14,738 nt of DNA from Deltaproteobacteria bacterium. GTDB taxonomy: Bacteria; Desulfobacterota_B; Binatia; Bin18. The DNA is taken from positions 1-14,738 of the forward strand of contig JAAXHF010000099.1 in assembly GCA_012271025.1 (NCBI GenBank), given 5' to 3'. Below the pieces are notes generated by a model. The model was given only the letters and a program-made list of their open reading frames with translations, ran no database searches and was not told the DNA's origin. This document shows, in pieces, positions 6,108-13,906 of the stretch (the stretch's first letter is position 1; each line of letters starts with the position of its first letter). The position numbers were made by a program, and so were the translations under genes.

Positions 6108-6629
6108 ATGACGACATTTTACTCACACCGAAAAGTGGCCGACCACACCTACATCGAAGTGGCCGGGATCGAGTTTGAGGACTTTGCCGAGGGGCAGACC
6201 TTTGAACATCGGCCGGGCCGCACCTTCACCGCTGAAGAGAGCCGGCTGCACGCCATCCGCTCGCTCGATCTGTCCATGCGCAATGTGGACGCAGTCTATA
6301 ACGAGAAGGTCTATGGCGGGCAGGAAATCATCGGCGAGTCTTTCCTGATCAGCGTGCTGACGGCACTGACGACCAAGACCTTTGGCAAGGTGGTGGCCAA
6401 TCTGGGCTGGACCAACATGCAGTTTCCGGTGCCGGTTCACGCCGGCGATACGATCTACGCCGAGTCCGAGATCCTCGGCAAACGGGAATCCGCCTCCCGC
6501 CCCGGCCAGGGCATTCTGTCGGTGAAGACGCGAGCCCTGAACCAGCGCGGCGAGGAGGTGTGTTCGTTCGAACGACGGATTCTGCTGTATAAGCGCGGCC
6601 AGGGGCCGTATGAAGAGGCCGGCTATTAA
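6108..6629 (+). CDS. MaoC-like single-hotdog protein, second of a tandem pair
   Basis: A 173-residue paralogue of the preceding gene: IEFEDFAEGQTFEHRPGR, central helix SFLISVLTALTTKTFG, VVANLGWTNMQFPVPVHAGD, then GDTIYAESEI and ALNQRGEEVCSFE. Its catalytic loop reads D54-L-S-M-R-N59: the Asp position is kept but the His of MaoC hydratases is Asn, the reverse of the first protein. The VANLG..PV..GDT block recalls the N-terminal half of mesaconyl-CoA hydratase-type double hotdogs (from memory). The two proteins therefore probably form a heterodimer equivalent to one double-hotdog chain. Same operon, 18 nt after the upstream stop, weak RBS. The TAA stop overlaps the stop of the convergent lyase gene in the tetranucleotide TTAA (6626-6629). 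Confidence 0.9.
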   Translation: MTTFYSHRKVADHTYIEVAGIEFEDFAEGQTFEHRPGRTFTAEESRLHAIRSLDLSMRNVDAVYNEKVYGGQEIIGESFLISVLTALTTKTFGKVVANLGWTNMQFPVPVHAGDTIYAESEILGKRESASRPGQGILSVKTRALNQRGEEVCSFERRILLYKRGQGPYEEAGY

Positions 6630-7573
6630 GCCGCAGTAACGCTGTGGCTGACCTTGGTAAAATACGTCATATCAGGATTGGTCATCGACTCGCCGACCTT
6701 GGAGTCGAGCCGCCGCTCAACCGCCTGGGTGGCCCAACGGCCTATTTCGACAATTTTGTCCAGATCGACGCCGGTTTCAATGCCCAGACCGTTCAGCATG
6801 TAGATCAGCTCTTCGGACGACAGGTTGCCGCTGGCCCCAGGCGCATTCGGGCAGCCGCCCAGGCCGCCACAGGCACTCTCCAGGACGCTCACGCCCATCT
6901 CCAGAGCCGCATAACAGTTGGCCAGCGCCATCCCGCAGGTGTTGTGAAAATGGGCGGTCAGGACGGAGACCGGAACCCCTTCATCTATACACGCCTGGAT
7001 GATGGCCTGAATCGACTTTGGCGTCCCGACTCCGATGCTGTCCCCGAGCCCGATCTCATAACAGCCCATGTGGTAAAAACGGGCAACGAGCTTCCCAACC
7101 GTGTGGGGATCAACCGCACCCTCATACGGACACCCGGCCACACACGAGACCGCCCCCCGCAGCCCGATGCCGTGTTCCTTTGCCGCTGCCGCAACCGGCT
7201 CAAAGCGGGCGAAACTCTCTTCGATTGTGCAGTTGATATTGGCCCGGCTGAAGGCTTCGGTGGCGCTGCCGAAAATCGTGATATACCTGGCCTTGGCCTT
7301 GAGAGCGTCCTGAAAGCCGCGCATATTGGGAACCAGAACACTGTATTCAACTCCGGGTTTCTGCCTGATCTGAGCCGCAACCTGATCGGTCAGCTGCATG
7401 GCCGGGATCACCCGGGGGCTGACAAACTCGCCGATTTCAATCGAAGGAAATCCGGCATCGGTCAGACGGTCGATCAGCTCGACCCGGAACTCGACAGGGA
7501 TGAGATGTTTGAAGCCTTCCAGCCCGTCGCGGGCGGTGAGGTCAACAATTTTGACTGTGTTCGGCAGTGCCAT
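6626..7573 (-). CDS. HMG-CoA lyase-like enzyme (HMGL-like TIM barrel)
   Basis: A 315-residue member of the HMGL/DRE-TIM metallolyase family, close to hydroxymethylglutaryl-CoA lyase, which cleaves HMG-CoA into acetyl-CoA and acetoacetate. Active-site positions line up: R15-D16 in LTARDGLEG, FVSPRVIPAM (50-59), GCPYEG (147-152), GLGDSIGVGTP (175-185), metal-binding HFH (H208, H210), the loop Cys C241 in GGLGGCP and N250 in GASGN. The C241-N250 and H208-C241 spacings match those I recall for human HMG-CoA lyase (C266/N275, H233). HFHNTCG replaces the usual H.HDT.G, so a related CoA substrate is possible. AAGGAG lies about 8 nt before the ATG. Convergent with the MaoC pair; together they suggest hydration and retro-aldol cleavage of a branched acyl-CoA (leucine or mevalonate-like degradation), an inference from context. 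Confidence 0.92.
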   Translation of the reverse strand: MALPNTVKIVDLTARDGLEGFKHLIPVEFRVELIDRLTDAGFPSIEIGEFVSPRVIPAMQLTDQVAAQIRQKPGVEYSVLVPNMRGFQDALKAKARYITIFGSATEAFSRANINCTIEESFARFEPVAAAAKEHGIGLRGAVSCVAGCPYEGAVDPHTVGKLVARFYHMGCYEIGLGDSIGVGTPKSIQAIIQACIDEGVPVSVLTAHFHNTCGMALANCYAALEMGVSVLESACGGLGGCPNAPGASGNLSSEELIYMLNGLGIETGVDLDKIVEIGRWATQAVERRLDSKVGESMTNPDMTYFTKVSHSVTAA

Positions 7574-7601: not shown

Positions 7602-7690
7602 TGAAGGTGAACGCTGCTCTCTGCTTGATGAGATGGTCATCATCGTTCACCTTTGGCCCAGCGAGGCTTATCAAGCCCGCCGGGGGCGCG
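7602..7690 (+). repeat. Palindromic repeat, copy 1 (upstream of the GNAT gene)
   Basis: The first 55 nt (7602-7656) match 8244-8298 with five differences, and the next 34 nt (7657-7690) match more weakly (about 19 of 34). The core is an inverted repeat: AAGGTGAACG (7604-7613) pairs perfectly with CGTTCACCTT (7644-7653), with a partly paired inner stem and a loop ending in GATGAGATGGTC. A second small hairpin, GGCTT (7665-7669) with AAGCC (7673-7677), occupies the right part. The copy lies about 30 nt upstream of the start of the lyase gene (read leftward) and upstream of GNAT (read rightward), so it could be part of either 5' leader. Confidence 0.85.
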
Positions 7691-7722: not shown

Positions 7723-8259
7723 ATGAAAGCCGAACTCCCGTGTATTGAGACCGCTCGGCTACGGCTGCGTCCGTGTCGGCGAGCCGATATCGACGTGCTG
7801 CACCGCATCTGGACCGATCCGGGCGTCCGTAAATATGTGTGGGACGATCAGATCATTGCCCGCAGCCAGGCGGCTGAGATAATTGAAGCCAGCCTGACCC
7901 AGTTTCGGCGCCAGAGGGATGGTATCTGGCTCATGCTGTTCGGCCAGGCAGAGACGGCGATTGGCTTTTGCGGCTTTTGGCTCTTCCACCAGCCCGCCCA
8001 GTTGGAGCTGCTGTACGGTCTCGTCCCGAGCCACTGGAACAGGGGCCTGGCCACCGAGGCGGCCCGAGCGCTGCTGCGGTTTGGCTTTGAGGAGCGTGGC
8101 TTTTCGACGATCAGCGCCAGTACGGACGCGCTGAATGCGGCCTCAATCCGCGTGCTGGAAAAGATCGGCATGCGCTTCCACAAACGCGAGCTGAGCAACG
8201 GTCTGGATACGGTCTATTACACCATCGCCCGCAACGCCTTCCGTGAAGGTGAACGATGA
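7723..8259 (+). CDS. GNAT-family N-acetyltransferase, RimJ/RimL-like
   Basis: A 178-residue GNAT acetyltransferase. It opens with ETARLRLRPCRRADIDVLHRI, typical of the RimJ/RimL (ribosomal-protein N-terminal acetyltransferase) group, and has the acetyl-CoA-binding motif A at HWNRGLATEAARALLRFGF followed by motif B NAASIRVLEKIGMRF. Acceptor unknown; family members modify protein N-termini, small molecules or antibiotics. The ATG at 7723 follows AGGAGGAAG with 7-8 nt spacing; the open frame extends upstream to 7567 but only through the repeat. The last four residues (EGER) and the stop codon are encoded by repeat copy 2, so the present C-terminus was probably set by that insertion. A single gene bracketed by direct repeats. 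Confidence 0.9.
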   Translation: MKAELPCIETARLRLRPCRRADIDVLHRIWTDPGVRKYVWDDQIIARSQAAEIIEASLTQFRRQRDGIWLMLFGQAETAIGFCGFWLFHQPAQLELLYGLVPSHWNRGLATEAARALLRFGFEERGFSTISASTDALNAASIRVLEKIGMRFHKRELSNGLDTVYYTIARNAFREGER

Positions 8260-8332
8260 TCTCTTCTCGATGAGATGGTCATCATCGTTTACCTTTGGAG
8301 CGCTGAGCCGTATCAGCTCGAGTGGAGGCGCG
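8244..8332 (+). repeat. Palindromic repeat, copy 2 (shared 3' end of two convergent genes)
   Basis: Same orientation as copy 1. The core stem is AAGGTGAACGATGAT (8246-8260) with ATCATCGTTTACCTT (8281-8295), 15 bp with one G-T wobble, around a 20-nt loop containing GATGAGATGGTC. The right part holds GAGC (8305-8308) with GCTC (8316-8319); this keeps a hairpin where copy 1 has a different one. The repeat contains the GNAT stop codon (8257-8259) and the stop of the convergent ADP-ribosylglycohydrolase-like gene (8313-8315). As a strong hairpin between convergent genes it could also act as a terminator, although no T-tract follows. Confidence 0.87.
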
Positions 8333-9458: not shown

Positions 9459-9590
9459 GGTGGTTCATTCCTCCTGTGAACGGTTAAGCTTGGCAGTATC
9501 CTTTTGTCCGTGCCGGTATTGCGCCCTAATAAGCACACTTTTCTCGCCTTGGGTAGAAGAATGATGGCTCCCCAGATATTCGGGAGTTCC

Positions 9591-9618
9591 TTGACAGCAG
9601 GGCCTTTTTCTGTAAAAT
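9591..9618 (+). promoter_or_regulatory. Sigma70-type promoter of the RHH-methyltransferase operon
   Basis: TTGACA (9591-9596) and TAAAAT (9613-9618) are separated by 16 nt, close to consensus. The predicted transcription start is at about 9624-9627, on or beside the ATG at 9627. A small inverted repeat, CTCCC (9568-9572) with GGGAG (9582-9586), sits just upstream of the -35 and could be an operator, but it is only 5 bp. Confidence 0.7.
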
Positions 9619-9626
9619 CGTAAATA

Positions 9627-9839
9627 ATGAAATACGGAACAGAAGATAAATCAGCGTGTGATCCACTGGTGCGCGAACGGTCCCCCAAGTTTGGAGCACC
9701 GACCGAGATGAAGCGGCTCACGATTGACATTCCCGCCGAACTTCATGCCAACGTCAAATCCATCTGTGCAAGACGGGGGGTCAAGATGTCGGATGCGATC
9801 CGAAGGATTTTAGAAGAAGAATTCGGGAGAATTGAATAA
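9627..9839 (+). CDS. Ribbon-helix-helix DNA-binding protein (ParG/Arc-like)
   Basis: A 70-residue protein whose C-terminal 43 residues form a ribbon-helix-helix domain: strand [12 protein letters not shown] (29-40), helix [12 protein letters not shown], helix [15 protein letters not shown]. This resembles ParG-like and antitoxin-like RHH proteins, which commonly carry a flexible basic N-terminal arm of this size. It probably represses its own operon, and its partner gene is the methyltransferase one nucleotide downstream. Two starts are possible: ATG 9627, which falls at the predicted transcription start and would give a leaderless mRNA, or ATG 9708, with GGAG 12 nt upstream, giving the bare 43-residue domain. 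I favour 9627 because homologous arms are common. Composition is less GC-rich than the genes on either side. Confidence 0.75.
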
Positions 9840-9840
9840 T

Positions 9841-10620
9841 ATGGGTGCAGGACAGGGTGAAATGTTTCCTGATGGCACCGACGAGCATCGCACGCCCTCA
9901 GGAAGAAAGCGACCAAACGGGGTAGCAACCTCCGATCTCATATTTTCGGCGTATGTAGGAAATAACTCCGACATCTTTCCGAAAGTGCTCAAGCTCCATG
10001 TCGAGGACGGGGCAAAGATCGCAGATGTGACGTACGGCAAAGGCGTTTTCTGGAAAAATATCGATACGGATAAATATCAATTTTTTCCATCCGACATTGC
10101 GGATGGCACGGATTGTCGGAACCTTCCCTATGAAGATGGTTCATTCGATGCCGTTGTCTTCGATCCACCGTACATGGAGGGGTTTTACAGAAAGGGAAAG
10201 ACTGTAAAGGCGGGCGATGGGACACACAATACATTCCGAGATCACTACTCCAACGGCGACGAGACGCCTAAGCCCAACGGCGGTAAATGGCACGCTGCGG
10301 TTTTAGAAATTTACAACGAGGGAAGCAAGGAAGCGCACCGCGTTTTGAGAGACAAAGGGATATTTATCGTCAAGTGTCAGGATGAGGTCAGTGCAAATAG
10401 GCAGAACCTTACTCACGTCGAGATCATCAACTCGTTCGCCGAAGTCGGTTTCTTCTGTAAGGATTTGTTCATCGTTGTTCGTCCCAATAAACCGGGGATG
10501 AGCCGGGTCATCAATCAAGTCCACGCGAGAAAGAACCACTCCTATTTTCTTGTTTTTGTCAAAATGCCAAAAGGGAAAAAAGCGTCGCAGATGCGCTTTG
10601 CTAAAGCATCTCGTTCATAA
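9841..10620 (+). CDS. DNA methyltransferase (DPPY motif, N6-adenine or N4-cytosine type)
   Basis: A 259-residue Rossmann-fold, SAM-dependent DNA methyltransferase. Motif I-like [11 protein letters not shown] (61-71) binds SAM; an acidic turn follows (SDIADG, 84-89), and motif IV is FDPPY (107-111), the catalytic signature of amino-methyltransferases. A loop rich in G/K/H (about 115-145) probably contacts DNA. C-terminal [22 protein letters not shown] and [10 protein letters not shown] complete the sheet. Motif order I then IV fits small orphan or phage/plasmid-type enzymes. Start: ATG 9841 with GGGAGA 10 nt upstream, one nucleotide after the RHH stop; a TTG at 9832 is too close to that RBS. 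No endonuclease gene is adjacent, but a HEPN-domain protein is encoded convergently. Visibly lower GC and more AAA/GAA/TTT codons than the flanks suggest acquisition. Target site not determinable. Confidence 0.88.
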
Positions 10621-10676
10621 ACCTGCGTGAGTTCTTCGATGGTGGTGTCCCCGCGCTGTAGGAGGGAGTCAGCCAT
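10542..10676 (-). CDS. Possible small ORF after the HEPN gene, antisense to the methyltransferase end
   Basis: A 44-codon frame (starts [20 protein letters not shown], ends LTKTRK) begins 2 nt after the HEPN stop codon on the same strand and runs into the antisense of the last 79 nt of the methyltransferase gene. The tight spacing favours translational coupling, and the first 20 codons look like ordinary protein sequence. There is no clear ribosome binding site. It may be a remnant of a longer gene cut when this block formed, or chance. No family recognised. Confidence 0.25.
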
Positions 10677-10678
10677 GG

Positions 10679-11332
10679 TTAGTTCTGACTGAAGTTTTGC
10701 AGGAGAAACTGTTCAACAAAGCCAATGACACTGTTGACTTCCGGTGCAGAGATTTTTTCCCAATCTGCGTGCAATGCTGCGTTTCTTATTTTCGGCATAG
10801 CTTCTAGCAATGACTTCTGCGCCCCAGAAACAAGCCCTTTCGATTTGAGCGCATTGATGATCTCGGACATTGTTCGATCATCGGTCTTTAATCCGTTGGC
10901 GTTTGCATAGCGTTTCAGTGCGTCCTCCAGCGCAGCAGTTGACAAAACGGCTGCTACATCCTTGTGGCCGTTGGTAAGGGATTCCTTAGTCAAGACAACG
11001 AAATTCCCAAAGACTTCTCCGGAAATTTCAAGATCGACATTGAAAACGTAGCCGCCTTCAAAGTCTTCTTTCGCGCTTTTGAATATTTCTTGGAGGGCAT
11101 TGATCCAATACTCACTTCCCCCGCATTTATTTAGGCTCTCTAAAAAATTGATGTAGTGGGGAGAATTTTCTCCATACACGGCCCTGATCAGATTTTGGCA
11201 GCTTGTGGCCCATCCTCGCCAGATTCCTCCCGGCACGTAACGACCAGTGGCTCCGCTCCCTGAACGAAACGGCAGTGAATCCGATTTTTCTTGAAGTTCT
11301 TGGAACCGTTTTAAGAATTTATCATTCAGCAT
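10679..11332 (-). CDS. HEPN/DUF4145-like domain protein, candidate RNase or abortive-infection effector
   Basis: A 217-residue soluble protein. Residues 1-110 are unrecognised (basic, aromatic-rich, GGIWRGWATSCQNLIRAVYG). The C-terminal half, about 115-212, is an all-alpha HEPN-like bundle: KDVAAVLSTAALEDALKRYANANG, then KSLLEAMPKIRNAALHADW, which contains R183-N-A-A-L-H188, a canonical R-x4-H HEPN ribonuclease motif with the usual polar residue after R. Such DUF4145-type domains are common in restriction, toxin-antitoxin and abortive-infection proteins. Start 11332 has GGAG 8 nt upstream; the open frame continues to 11467 but would run through the terminator-like hairpin next to the tRNA. 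Lower GC than neighbours. It faces the methyltransferase gene with a 58-nt gap. HEPN assignment is from the motif and helical pattern, so moderate confidence. Confidence 0.7.
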   Translation of the reverse strand: MLNDKFLKRFQELQEKSDSLPFRSGSGATGRYVPGGIWRGWATSCQNLIRAVYGENSPHYINFLESLNKCGGSEYWINALQEIFKSAKEDFEGGYVFNVDLEISGEVFGNFVVLTKESLTNGHKDVAAVLSTAALEDALKRYANANGLKTDDRTMSEIINALKSKGLVSGAQKSLLEAMPKIRNAALHADWEKISAPEVNSVIGFVEQFLLQNFSQN

Positions 11333-11446
11333 AGAGCATTCTCCGATCCCAGAGGCCGTTCTGTTGGATGAGAGACTGTCGAACGATCCTCGCGCTGTCA
11401 GGTGTCCTTCTGTCGGTCGTATCCTGCCATCCCCGGACCAAACCCA

Positions 11447-11479
11447 GACGCCCCGAAGTCTTGGCAACTTCGGGGCGTC
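11447..11479 (-). terminator. Terminator-like hairpin 4 nt after the initiator tRNA
   Basis: GACGCCCCGAAGT (11447-11459) and ACTTCGGGGCGTC (11467-11479) form a perfect 13-bp stem with a 7-nt loop. It lies 4 nt beyond the CCA end of the minus-strand tRNA, the expected place for a terminator or 3'-processing hairpin. The following bases (TGGGTTTGG on the minus strand) are only a weak T-tract. Confidence 0.65.
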
Positions 11480-11483
11480 AGAT

Positions 11484-11560
<77 letters not shown>

Positions 11561-13108: not shown

Positions 13109-13906
13109 TCAGAGCTGTTCCAGGCCGGGCGGCAGCGGAGCATCCGGACTGACGGCCAGGCTGAGGACAATGGGACCGAAGGGAGCCGTTTGGTGCACGT
13201 CAATCACCCGGCTGCGGACCAGTTCCAGGCTGGCCAGGAAGGTCACCAGGATTTGTAATCGGGTCGTATCGGCCGCGAATAATTCGGTGAAGCTGATGCG
13301 GCCACGCTCCCGTAGCAGGTCGAGGACTAAACCGACACGCTCGCGCAGAGAGATCTGTTCAAGCACAATCTCGTGCACCAGTTCGGGCTCGGCCTTTTTC
13401 AGCGCCTCCTGCAGGGCGTCAAGCAAGTCCCCCAGCCCGACAGTAGGAAACGTGATCTCCTCTTGAGATGATCGGTTATCGCGTTTCCTACTGACATCAT
13501 GCACATGCTTGGCCTGATCCTCGGTGGGCAGCGGCCGACGGGTAAAGACATCCCGTCCCAGCAACGGTCGGCGCCCGAGCCCGACCGCAGCTTCCTGAAA
13601 GCGCTGGTATTCGAGCAGCTGGCGGGCCAGTTCTTCCCGGGGATCGGGTCCGGCTTCCTCCTCCGCCGTCTCGTGGGTAGGCAGCAACAGGCGCGACTTG
13701 AGGTGTAACAGGGTGGCGGCCATGACCAGATATTCTCCGGCCAGGTCAAGGTCGAGCTGGTGCAGCAGGTCGAGGTAGCCGAGGTATTGGTCGGTGATGG
13801 TGGCGACTGGAATGTCCGAGAGATCGACCTCGTTCTTTTTGACGAGGTGCAGGAGGAGGTCGAGCGGTCCCTCAAAAATATCGAGTCTGACGCGGTATGA
13901 CATCAT
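13109..13906 (-). CDS. scpA: Segregation and condensation protein A (with in-frame palindromic insert)
   Basis: A 265-residue ScpA, the kleisin that bridges SMC heads in bacterial condensin. The N-terminal SMC-binding domain is clear: VRLDIFEGPLDLLLHLVKKNEVDLSDIPVATITDQYLGYL, then LDLAGEYLVMAATLLHLKSRLLLP. The C-terminal winged helix is HEIVLEQISLRERVGLVLDLL...ISFTELFA, then LVTFLASLELVRSRVIDVHQTAPFGPIVL. Between them residues 138-156 (V-S-R-K-R-D-N-R-S-S-Q-E-E-I-T-F-P-T-V) are encoded by a palindromic repeat at 13441-13493 related to those flanking the GNAT gene. The insert lies in the flexible linker, and the reading frame stays open. Start is one of two adjacent ATGs (13906 or 13903), 14 nt after the M50 stop, no strong RBS. 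Confidence 0.95.
   Translation of the reverse strand: MMSYRVRLDIFEGPLDLLLHLVKKNEVDLSDIPVATITDQYLGYLDLLHQLDLDLAGEYLVMAATLLHLKSRLLLPTHETAEEEAGPDPREELARQLLEYQRFQEAAVGLGRRPLLGRDVFTRRPLPTEDQAKHVHDVSRKRDNRSSQEEITFPTVGLGDLLDALQEALKKAEPELVHEIVLEQISLRERVGLVLDLLRERGRISFTELFAADTTRLQILVTFLASLELVRSRVIDVHQTAPFGPIVLSLAVSPDAPLPPGLEQL
13441..13493 (+). repeat. Palindromic repeat, copy 3 (inside scpA, in frame)
   Basis: CAGTAGGAAACG (13441-13452) and CGTTTCCTACTG (13482-13493) pair perfectly over 12 bp, then a G-T wobble and GAT/ATC extend the stem to 16 bp. The loop region TGATCTCCTCTTGAGATG matches the TGATCTCTTCTCGATGAGATG of copy 2 in the same orientation, with small gaps. The outer stem differs from copies 1 and 2 on both arms in a way that preserves pairing (AGGAAACG/CGTTTCCT versus AGGTGAACG/CGTTTACCT). 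The repeat ends abruptly at both sides in ordinary scpA coding sequence. Related family membership is my own alignment by eye. Confidence 0.75.

Follow-up and report, generated by a model that had tools for sequence, protein, structure and literature searches.

Rickettsia palindromic elements (RPEs) lie between genes and also in frame inside unrelated, often conserved genes, where they encode a recurring peptide; in the parts of the reports drawn on here (PMC2229807, PMC10969869 and PMC3767692), the mechanism of their spread is given as not established. These rickettsial elements measure approximately 100–150 bp in the sections cited, with one RPE-4 of 84 bp in a table of PMC3767692, and their host range is Rickettsia (and Wolbachia). 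Other short bacterial repeats are the REPs, which an excerpt of PMC3733652 defines by unpaired tags, and the bacterial MITEs (Correia/NEMIS, RUP and ERIC), which PMC2229807, in the part cited, describes as non-autonomous elements of high copy number with terminal inverted repeats and some in-frame fusions.

Here we analyse a 14,738-nucleotide stretch of DNA (the window) in which a hairpin element lies inside scpA. Like the RPEs, the element is palindromic, is found both between and within genes, and is read in frame in unrelated proteins; it differs from them in being mostly 51–55 nt long, in belonging to a Binatota-related genus (its named record is a Candidatus Binatota bin), and in having conserved loop sides and covarying arms. 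Compared by description, it behaves like an RPE, set apart by size, host and loop: the same in-frame palindrome strategy that is best known from Rickettsia, but probably a separate family, in another phylum. With the REP/RAYT systems (GTAG and CGTC repeats) it shares short hairpins in many, mostly intergenic copies; however, it has no regular unpaired GTAG or CGTC tag, its loop is about 20 nt long, and no Y1 transposase was found in the nearest genome compared, so that it is not a tagged REP. As in MITEs, there are terminal inverted repeats (the 16-bp arms), non-autonomy and high copy number, but no consistent target duplication was seen at the sites compared, the consensus has no TA ends, the arms vary yet stay paired, and no parent transposon was found with the two profiles used (PF01797 and PF04986, neither a DDE family). 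We consider it likely, with considerable confidence, that these hairpins form a small non-autonomous mobile family with variable but paired arms of about 16 bp and an asymmetric loop, whose surviving coding copies are tolerated as linkers and then decay.

The hairpin in scpA and its relatives in the window

The scpA gene (13109–13906, minus strand; 265 aa; Pfam SMC_ScpA, PF02616) contains, at 13441–13493, a hairpin with arms of about 16 bp (one mismatch allowed) enclosing a 21-nt loop, its core in plus orientation and therefore antisense to scpA. Folded with RNA parameters, the stretch 13436–13498 reached −28.1 kcal/mol on the plus strand (z = −5.2; minus strand, z = −4.4), and 0 of 200 dinucleotide shuffles folded equally well on either strand; the inverted repeat reported in the preliminary description is real. 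Scanning the whole window for hairpins (arm of at least 12, loop of 15–30, no more than 1 mismatch) produced 11 overlapping entries in only three places, 7604–7653, 8246–8295 and 13439–13495, compared with 0 to 3 entries per sequence in 10 random sequences matched in first-order composition.

The other two hairpins, both on the plus strand, are of the consensus-arm type. The first (7603–7654) lies between genes at 6626–7573 (minus) and 7723–8259 (plus), and the second (8245–8296) provides, in one of its arms, the end of the acetyltransferase gene at 7723–8259, including its stop codon (TGA, 8257–8259). In shuffle tests the 8245 copy gave z = −3.9 (0 of 200 shuffles) and the 7603 copy a weaker z = −2.0 (7 of 200). 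These two were compared with G001, the nearest genome, and G002, its genus sister (incomplete, fragmented assemblies, 96% and 87% complete). Neither element is present in G001, although neither junction is clean there, and G002 carries both, with a 6-nt deletion in the right arm of the 7603 copy.

Judged from its sequence, the scpA hairpin is a divergent relative of these two, placed in a subfamily with GGAAACGTGAT arms. Our covariance model (R1) was built from 25 training copies (22 from G001, the 7603 and 8245 copies, and one Candidatus Binatota record), with the scpA copy left out; it scored the two training copies in the window at 74.0 bits (7603) and 77.0 bits (8245) and matched 13441–13493 over its full length at 29.0 bits (E = 3.5 × 10−7 in 22.7 kb; 1.8 × 10−5 in 1.18 Mb). 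The relation previously proposed to the repeats at 7602 and 8244 was thereby borne out, and the stem arms do differ in a paired manner; they read AGTAGGAAACG/CGTTTCCTACT in the scpA copy and AAGGTGAACG/CGTTCACCTT in the other two.

Comparison with G001 revealed an empty site. The G001 scpA lacks exactly 54 nt (18 codons) between flanks that are 94 and 92% identical, its protein being 18 residues shorter, and reads cccGACatc where the window has cccGAC, 51 nt and GACatc; GAC repeats at 13439–13441 and 13493–13495 therefore flank a 51-nt body (13439–13495 in all), or, in an alternative reading, 53 nt were added with one duplicated base. The element encodes ScpA residues 138–155 (VSRKRDNRSSQEEITFPT). 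Of the earlier proposal that the repeat adds about 18 residues (138–156) without breaking the frame, the number of residues and the intact frame held, whereas the boundary moved to residue 155 and the net insert from 53 to 54 nt.

Family size, host range and placement

The covariance-model search found many further copies in the genus. A core pattern alone matched 25 times in G001, at 23 places (reversed control, 0), and with 150 candidates scored per genome and both strands counted, R1 matched (E ≤ 0.001) at least 111 times in G001 and at least 80 times in G002, compared with 0 to 2 matches in any one of 14 further genomes of the family (again 150 candidates scored per genome). Among 118 genomes of the class, a broader model (R2) with stricter filters matched in four: G001, G002, G015 (two matches) and G072 (one match). 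The G072 match (L198) is a longer, different-looking palindrome that is probably unrelated and was not counted in the family. One of the two G015 matches lies on contig C209 (L197), where the element sits in frame within a YgiQ-family gene. This contig matches G001 at 90% and matches none of 6 other tested genomes of the G015 genus; it is probably a bin contaminant from the genus to which the element belongs, or else a transfer. Among the genomes searched, the family is thus nearly restricted to one genus. An exact 21-nt pattern matched once in Genome_contigs, in a Candidatus Binatota bin; one strict 36-nt pattern had no exact match in IMG/VR; and at the level of titles and abstract openings we found no account of palindromic elements in Binatota.

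For placement we used the 225 R1 matches at E ≤ 0.01 in 1.18 Mb of G001, G002 and the window (stretches selected for holding copies), which resolve into 148 distinct, dispersed places after the two strands of each place were merged by hand; two partial or overlapping matches at E = 0.01 (L085:17432–17455 and L102:6930–6985) were excluded. A DNA search found further copies with GGGAAACGTGAT arms, several of them missing among the R1 matches listed, and copy counts are therefore lower bounds. Although the coding density of these stretches is 0.88 (gene calls from a purpose-written caller), 33 of the 148 places fall within a predicted gene, 77 being intergenic and 38 at gene edges. For 33 of those 38, it is the 3′ end of the gene that falls within the element. 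Inside genes, 28 of the 33 copies are in frame 1, the sole frame of the consensus that is free of stops, on either strand: 24 are read antisense (giving the hydrophilic KVNDDDHLIKKRSSFTL) and 4 sense (KVNDDLFLMRWSSSFTL), orthologous copies being counted separately. Five of the 33 lie no more than 40 codons from the predicted start and, together with a site in L110, at least six may precede the true start. The L110 site, an O-methyltransferase ORF with a 54-nt gap in G001, was examined as an in-frame insert and ruled out, since in G001 its first 98 residues fall in a different frame; the true start of this gene is probably downstream of the element.

Filled and empty sites were compared with flank pieces, approximately 36 of the 46 prepared being searched. 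Five proteins differ from their orthologues by a single gap of exactly 18 residues, namely ScpA, a GyrB-type topoisomerase, polyphosphate kinase (PPK), a YgiQ-family protein and a gamma-glutamyltransferase (GGT) ORF, and all five read the antisense strand of the element. In the GyrB-type protein (above cut-off for NF004189, below it for TIGR01059 gyrB), the insert lies between the Toprim and C-terminal domains; the GGT ORF, of 183 residues, covers only the N-terminal part of the enzyme, and the gene may therefore be broken. Other proteins differ in length by 19 (an AddA/UvrD-like helicase), 17 (a metallophosphatase) and 14 residues (an abhydrolase). At the DNA level, the difference is a single 54-nt gap for ScpA, GyrB and GGT, the YgiQ match is 54 nt shorter, and the surrounding DNA alignment is not clean for PPK. 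Outside gene interiors, gaps measure 52 nt (L096:17047 and L092:7140) or 54 nt (L085:15170 and L110:9082). Junction duplications range from 0 to 3 nt and vary between sites without a rule, and we therefore claim no target duplication. Because sister genomes offer both occupied and empty sites, one can trace how such insertions arise, are tolerated, flip and decay.

Structure and divergence of inserted copies

The consensus of the element, CAAGGTGAACGATGATCTCTTCCTGATGAGGTGGTCATCATCGTTCACCTTG, comprises a 16-bp stem and a loop of approximately 20 nt, the sides of which (TGATCTCTTC ... GGTCATCA) are better conserved than the tip. Its length is 51–55 nt in 122 of the 148 matches (range, 38–70), and the asymmetric loop gives each copy a direction. 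Across 68 copies, the arms covary strongly, with 149 cells changed on both sides compared with 40.5 in shuffled data (0 of 500 shuffles reached 149) and a maximum of 32 in slid controls. Outside the stem, 79 copies showed a weak preference for C at the fourth base upstream and G at the fourth base downstream of the element; a joint C/G preference was set aside, both bases being present at just 23 of 113 copies.

At orthologous sites, inserted copies diverge more than the DNA around them. In 27 same-orientation pairs, flanks differ by 5.7%, compared with 11.1% for the stem and 9.5% for the loop in 26 of these pairs (one with unequal lengths was excluded from stem and loop, and flipped pairs from the test). 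Changes on both sides were counted in eight stem pairs, with compensation in five, compared with means of 5.8 and 2.0 in simulations of the 26 pairs that assumed 60% transitions (P = 0.17 and 0.04, respectively); the excess is weak and could reflect mild selection or the correction of arms through template switching. In groups chosen by eye, 12 one-genome sites whose gap had the size of an element gave a stem Watson–Crick fraction of 0.956, and 71 shared copies, both pair members included, gave 0.828 (P = 2 × 10−4); a second set of 12 one-genome sites (0.828) was no better paired than the shared copies, and all 24 together gave P = 0.002. The palindrome thus seems to be near perfect when young and to decay afterwards. 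The preliminary description had envisaged a coding-tolerant family of conserved structure: the structure does recur, with arms that covary across copies, but the individual inserted copy is not well conserved. Any selection for structure would be exerted chiefly in the mobile pool, and inserted copies are mostly decaying passengers, although the weak compensation excess may leave some share to post-insertion selection or arm correction.

These measurements bear directly on the idea that each hairpin is a functional RNA or DNA element (a terminator, attenuator, mRNA stabiliser or protein-binding site) selected at its own place. Such a function would fit the strong hairpin, the arm covariation across copies, the concentration of copies between genes and at gene ends and, at orthologous sites, the excess of compensated changes at P = 0.04; we nevertheless consider it improbable, because at those sites the flanks diverge more slowly than stem or loop, no Rfam family reached its gathering threshold on the hairpin stretches (in the window, only a tRNA did), the consensus has no T-run, and the element shows no preference for gaps between convergent genes (these hold 8 of the 110 copies that lie outside gene interiors and have both neighbours called, and make up 93 of the 713 gaps of at least 30 nt overall). 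Strong covariation across copies combined with poor conservation per site is a pattern that could be mistaken for a selected RNA.

Loop orientation also changes after insertion. Among 42 shared pairs (leaving out that at L081:6717, whose G002 side has no R1 match), 34 have loops in the same orientation, 6 have the loop inverted with the flanks in place and 2 are unclear. In yeast, the switching of templates between inverted repeats turns the spacer round and makes the arms alike, according to the part of PMC8604942 cited here. The likeness is a loop inverted between fixed arms at one locus; the difference is that the yeast process, as described in that part of the paper, is a mutation of existing repeats, whereas here the inversion acts on inserted mobile copies.

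Proposed spread of the family, and the inserted peptides

Within a mobile family, copies would be spread by a trans-acting activity that reads the hairpin shape and the loop more than the arm sequence, perhaps on single-stranded DNA; we infer such an activity from young-looking copies, which differ in their arms yet are almost perfect palindromes, and from the lack of a consistent target duplication at junctions. Most insertions that survive lie between genes or at the ends of genes. Those that survive within genes are read in the single open frame, usually antisense to the core, and the host protein tolerates the resulting short hydrophilic linker (K.DDDDH...KRSS.L or RKRDNRSSQEEITFP). The palindrome mutates later, and its loop is sometimes inverted, most simply via template switching during replication. 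Movement is read here from presence and absence in metagenome bins, where loss and gain look alike at many sites. Profile searches with PF01797 and with the Y2 transposase profile PF04986 identified no mobilising enzyme (the PF04986 control matched nowhere either, so that its negative carries no weight), and no source element was seen. A more specific proposal, which we advance tentatively and think somewhat doubtful, is that recognition depends on the hairpin's shape and loop and not on its terminal sequence, that the arms diversify freely yet stay palindromic in the mobile pool, and that the mover is an enzyme of an undescribed kind that leaves a recurrent 18-residue hydrophilic tag in ScpA, GyrB and other housekeeping proteins.

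A known mover to consider is RAYT, the IS200/IS605-type tyrosine transposase of REP families. IS200/IS605 elements are not known to leave a clear target duplication. The short, dispersed and largely intergenic hairpins without clear target duplication would suit such a system, and the scpA copy does contain GTAG (13443–13446), though within the paired arm. However, up to 8 nt from the stem, GTAG stands beside 0 of 113 copies and CGTC beside 5 of 113, and Y1_Tnp (PF01797) has 0 matches in the 96% complete G001 and one in G002, on a 5.8-kb contig (L166) that has no R1 match; a RAYT-moved REP family is accordingly an unlikely identity for the element.

Returning to ScpA, we considered whether the insert is instead an adaptation, a linker kept by selection because it serves the condensin complex, as its in-frame presence in both the window and G002, whose ScpA proteins are 98% identical, might suggest. 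Against this, near-identical copies of the same subfamily, and hence near-identical peptides, occur in unrelated proteins of G002 (PPK and the GGT ORF) and are absent from the G001 orthologues, one further copy lying elsewhere in G001 (L193). Among 15 ScpA proteins chosen for alignment from 120 listed, the full insert is in the window protein alone and the 14 others are without it, and the ScpA of the sister genome G001 also lacks it, in line with the comparison with relatives proposed in the preliminary description; a metagenomic relative (P0002) has an in-frame QEEITFPT at the insert place, best read as a remnant left by in-frame deletion. Adaptation of this kind is thus very improbable. An AlphaFold2 model of ScpA (mean pLDDT, 46.4) was too poor to place the insert. 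Finally, template switching can create hairpins (PMC8794818, in the part cited) and could explain the loop flips, but an origin of each hairpin in place, with no mobility, is barely credible given that dispersed copies share some 50 nt in unrelated places and that several are clean gaps in the orthologue.

Several smaller observations accompany the hairpin family. The loop motif GATCTC appears as GAGTTC in several copies (L111:3401, L098:4399, L111:13983, L113:3843 and others), and the same difference is also seen between copies at one same orthologous site; such repetition of a two-base change may point to templated mutation or to sequence exchange among copies. Copies stand in tandem at L116:8925–9031 and L119:9884–9987, and an apparently nested or chimeric copy lies at L102:6954–7023. 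Beside the G001 copy at L119:19579–19631 is a perfect 20-nt palindrome (19635–19654), as if it were a copy minus its loop, at a place where G002 has a second copy. In the window itself, positions 9482–11439, beside a tRNA-Met gene (11484–11560), hold a DNA methylase gene (9832–10620) and most of a DUF4145 gene (10679–11467); the segment is missing from the orthologous contig of G002, is replaced in G001 by approximately 1.2 kb of other DNA, and looks like a small accessory island.
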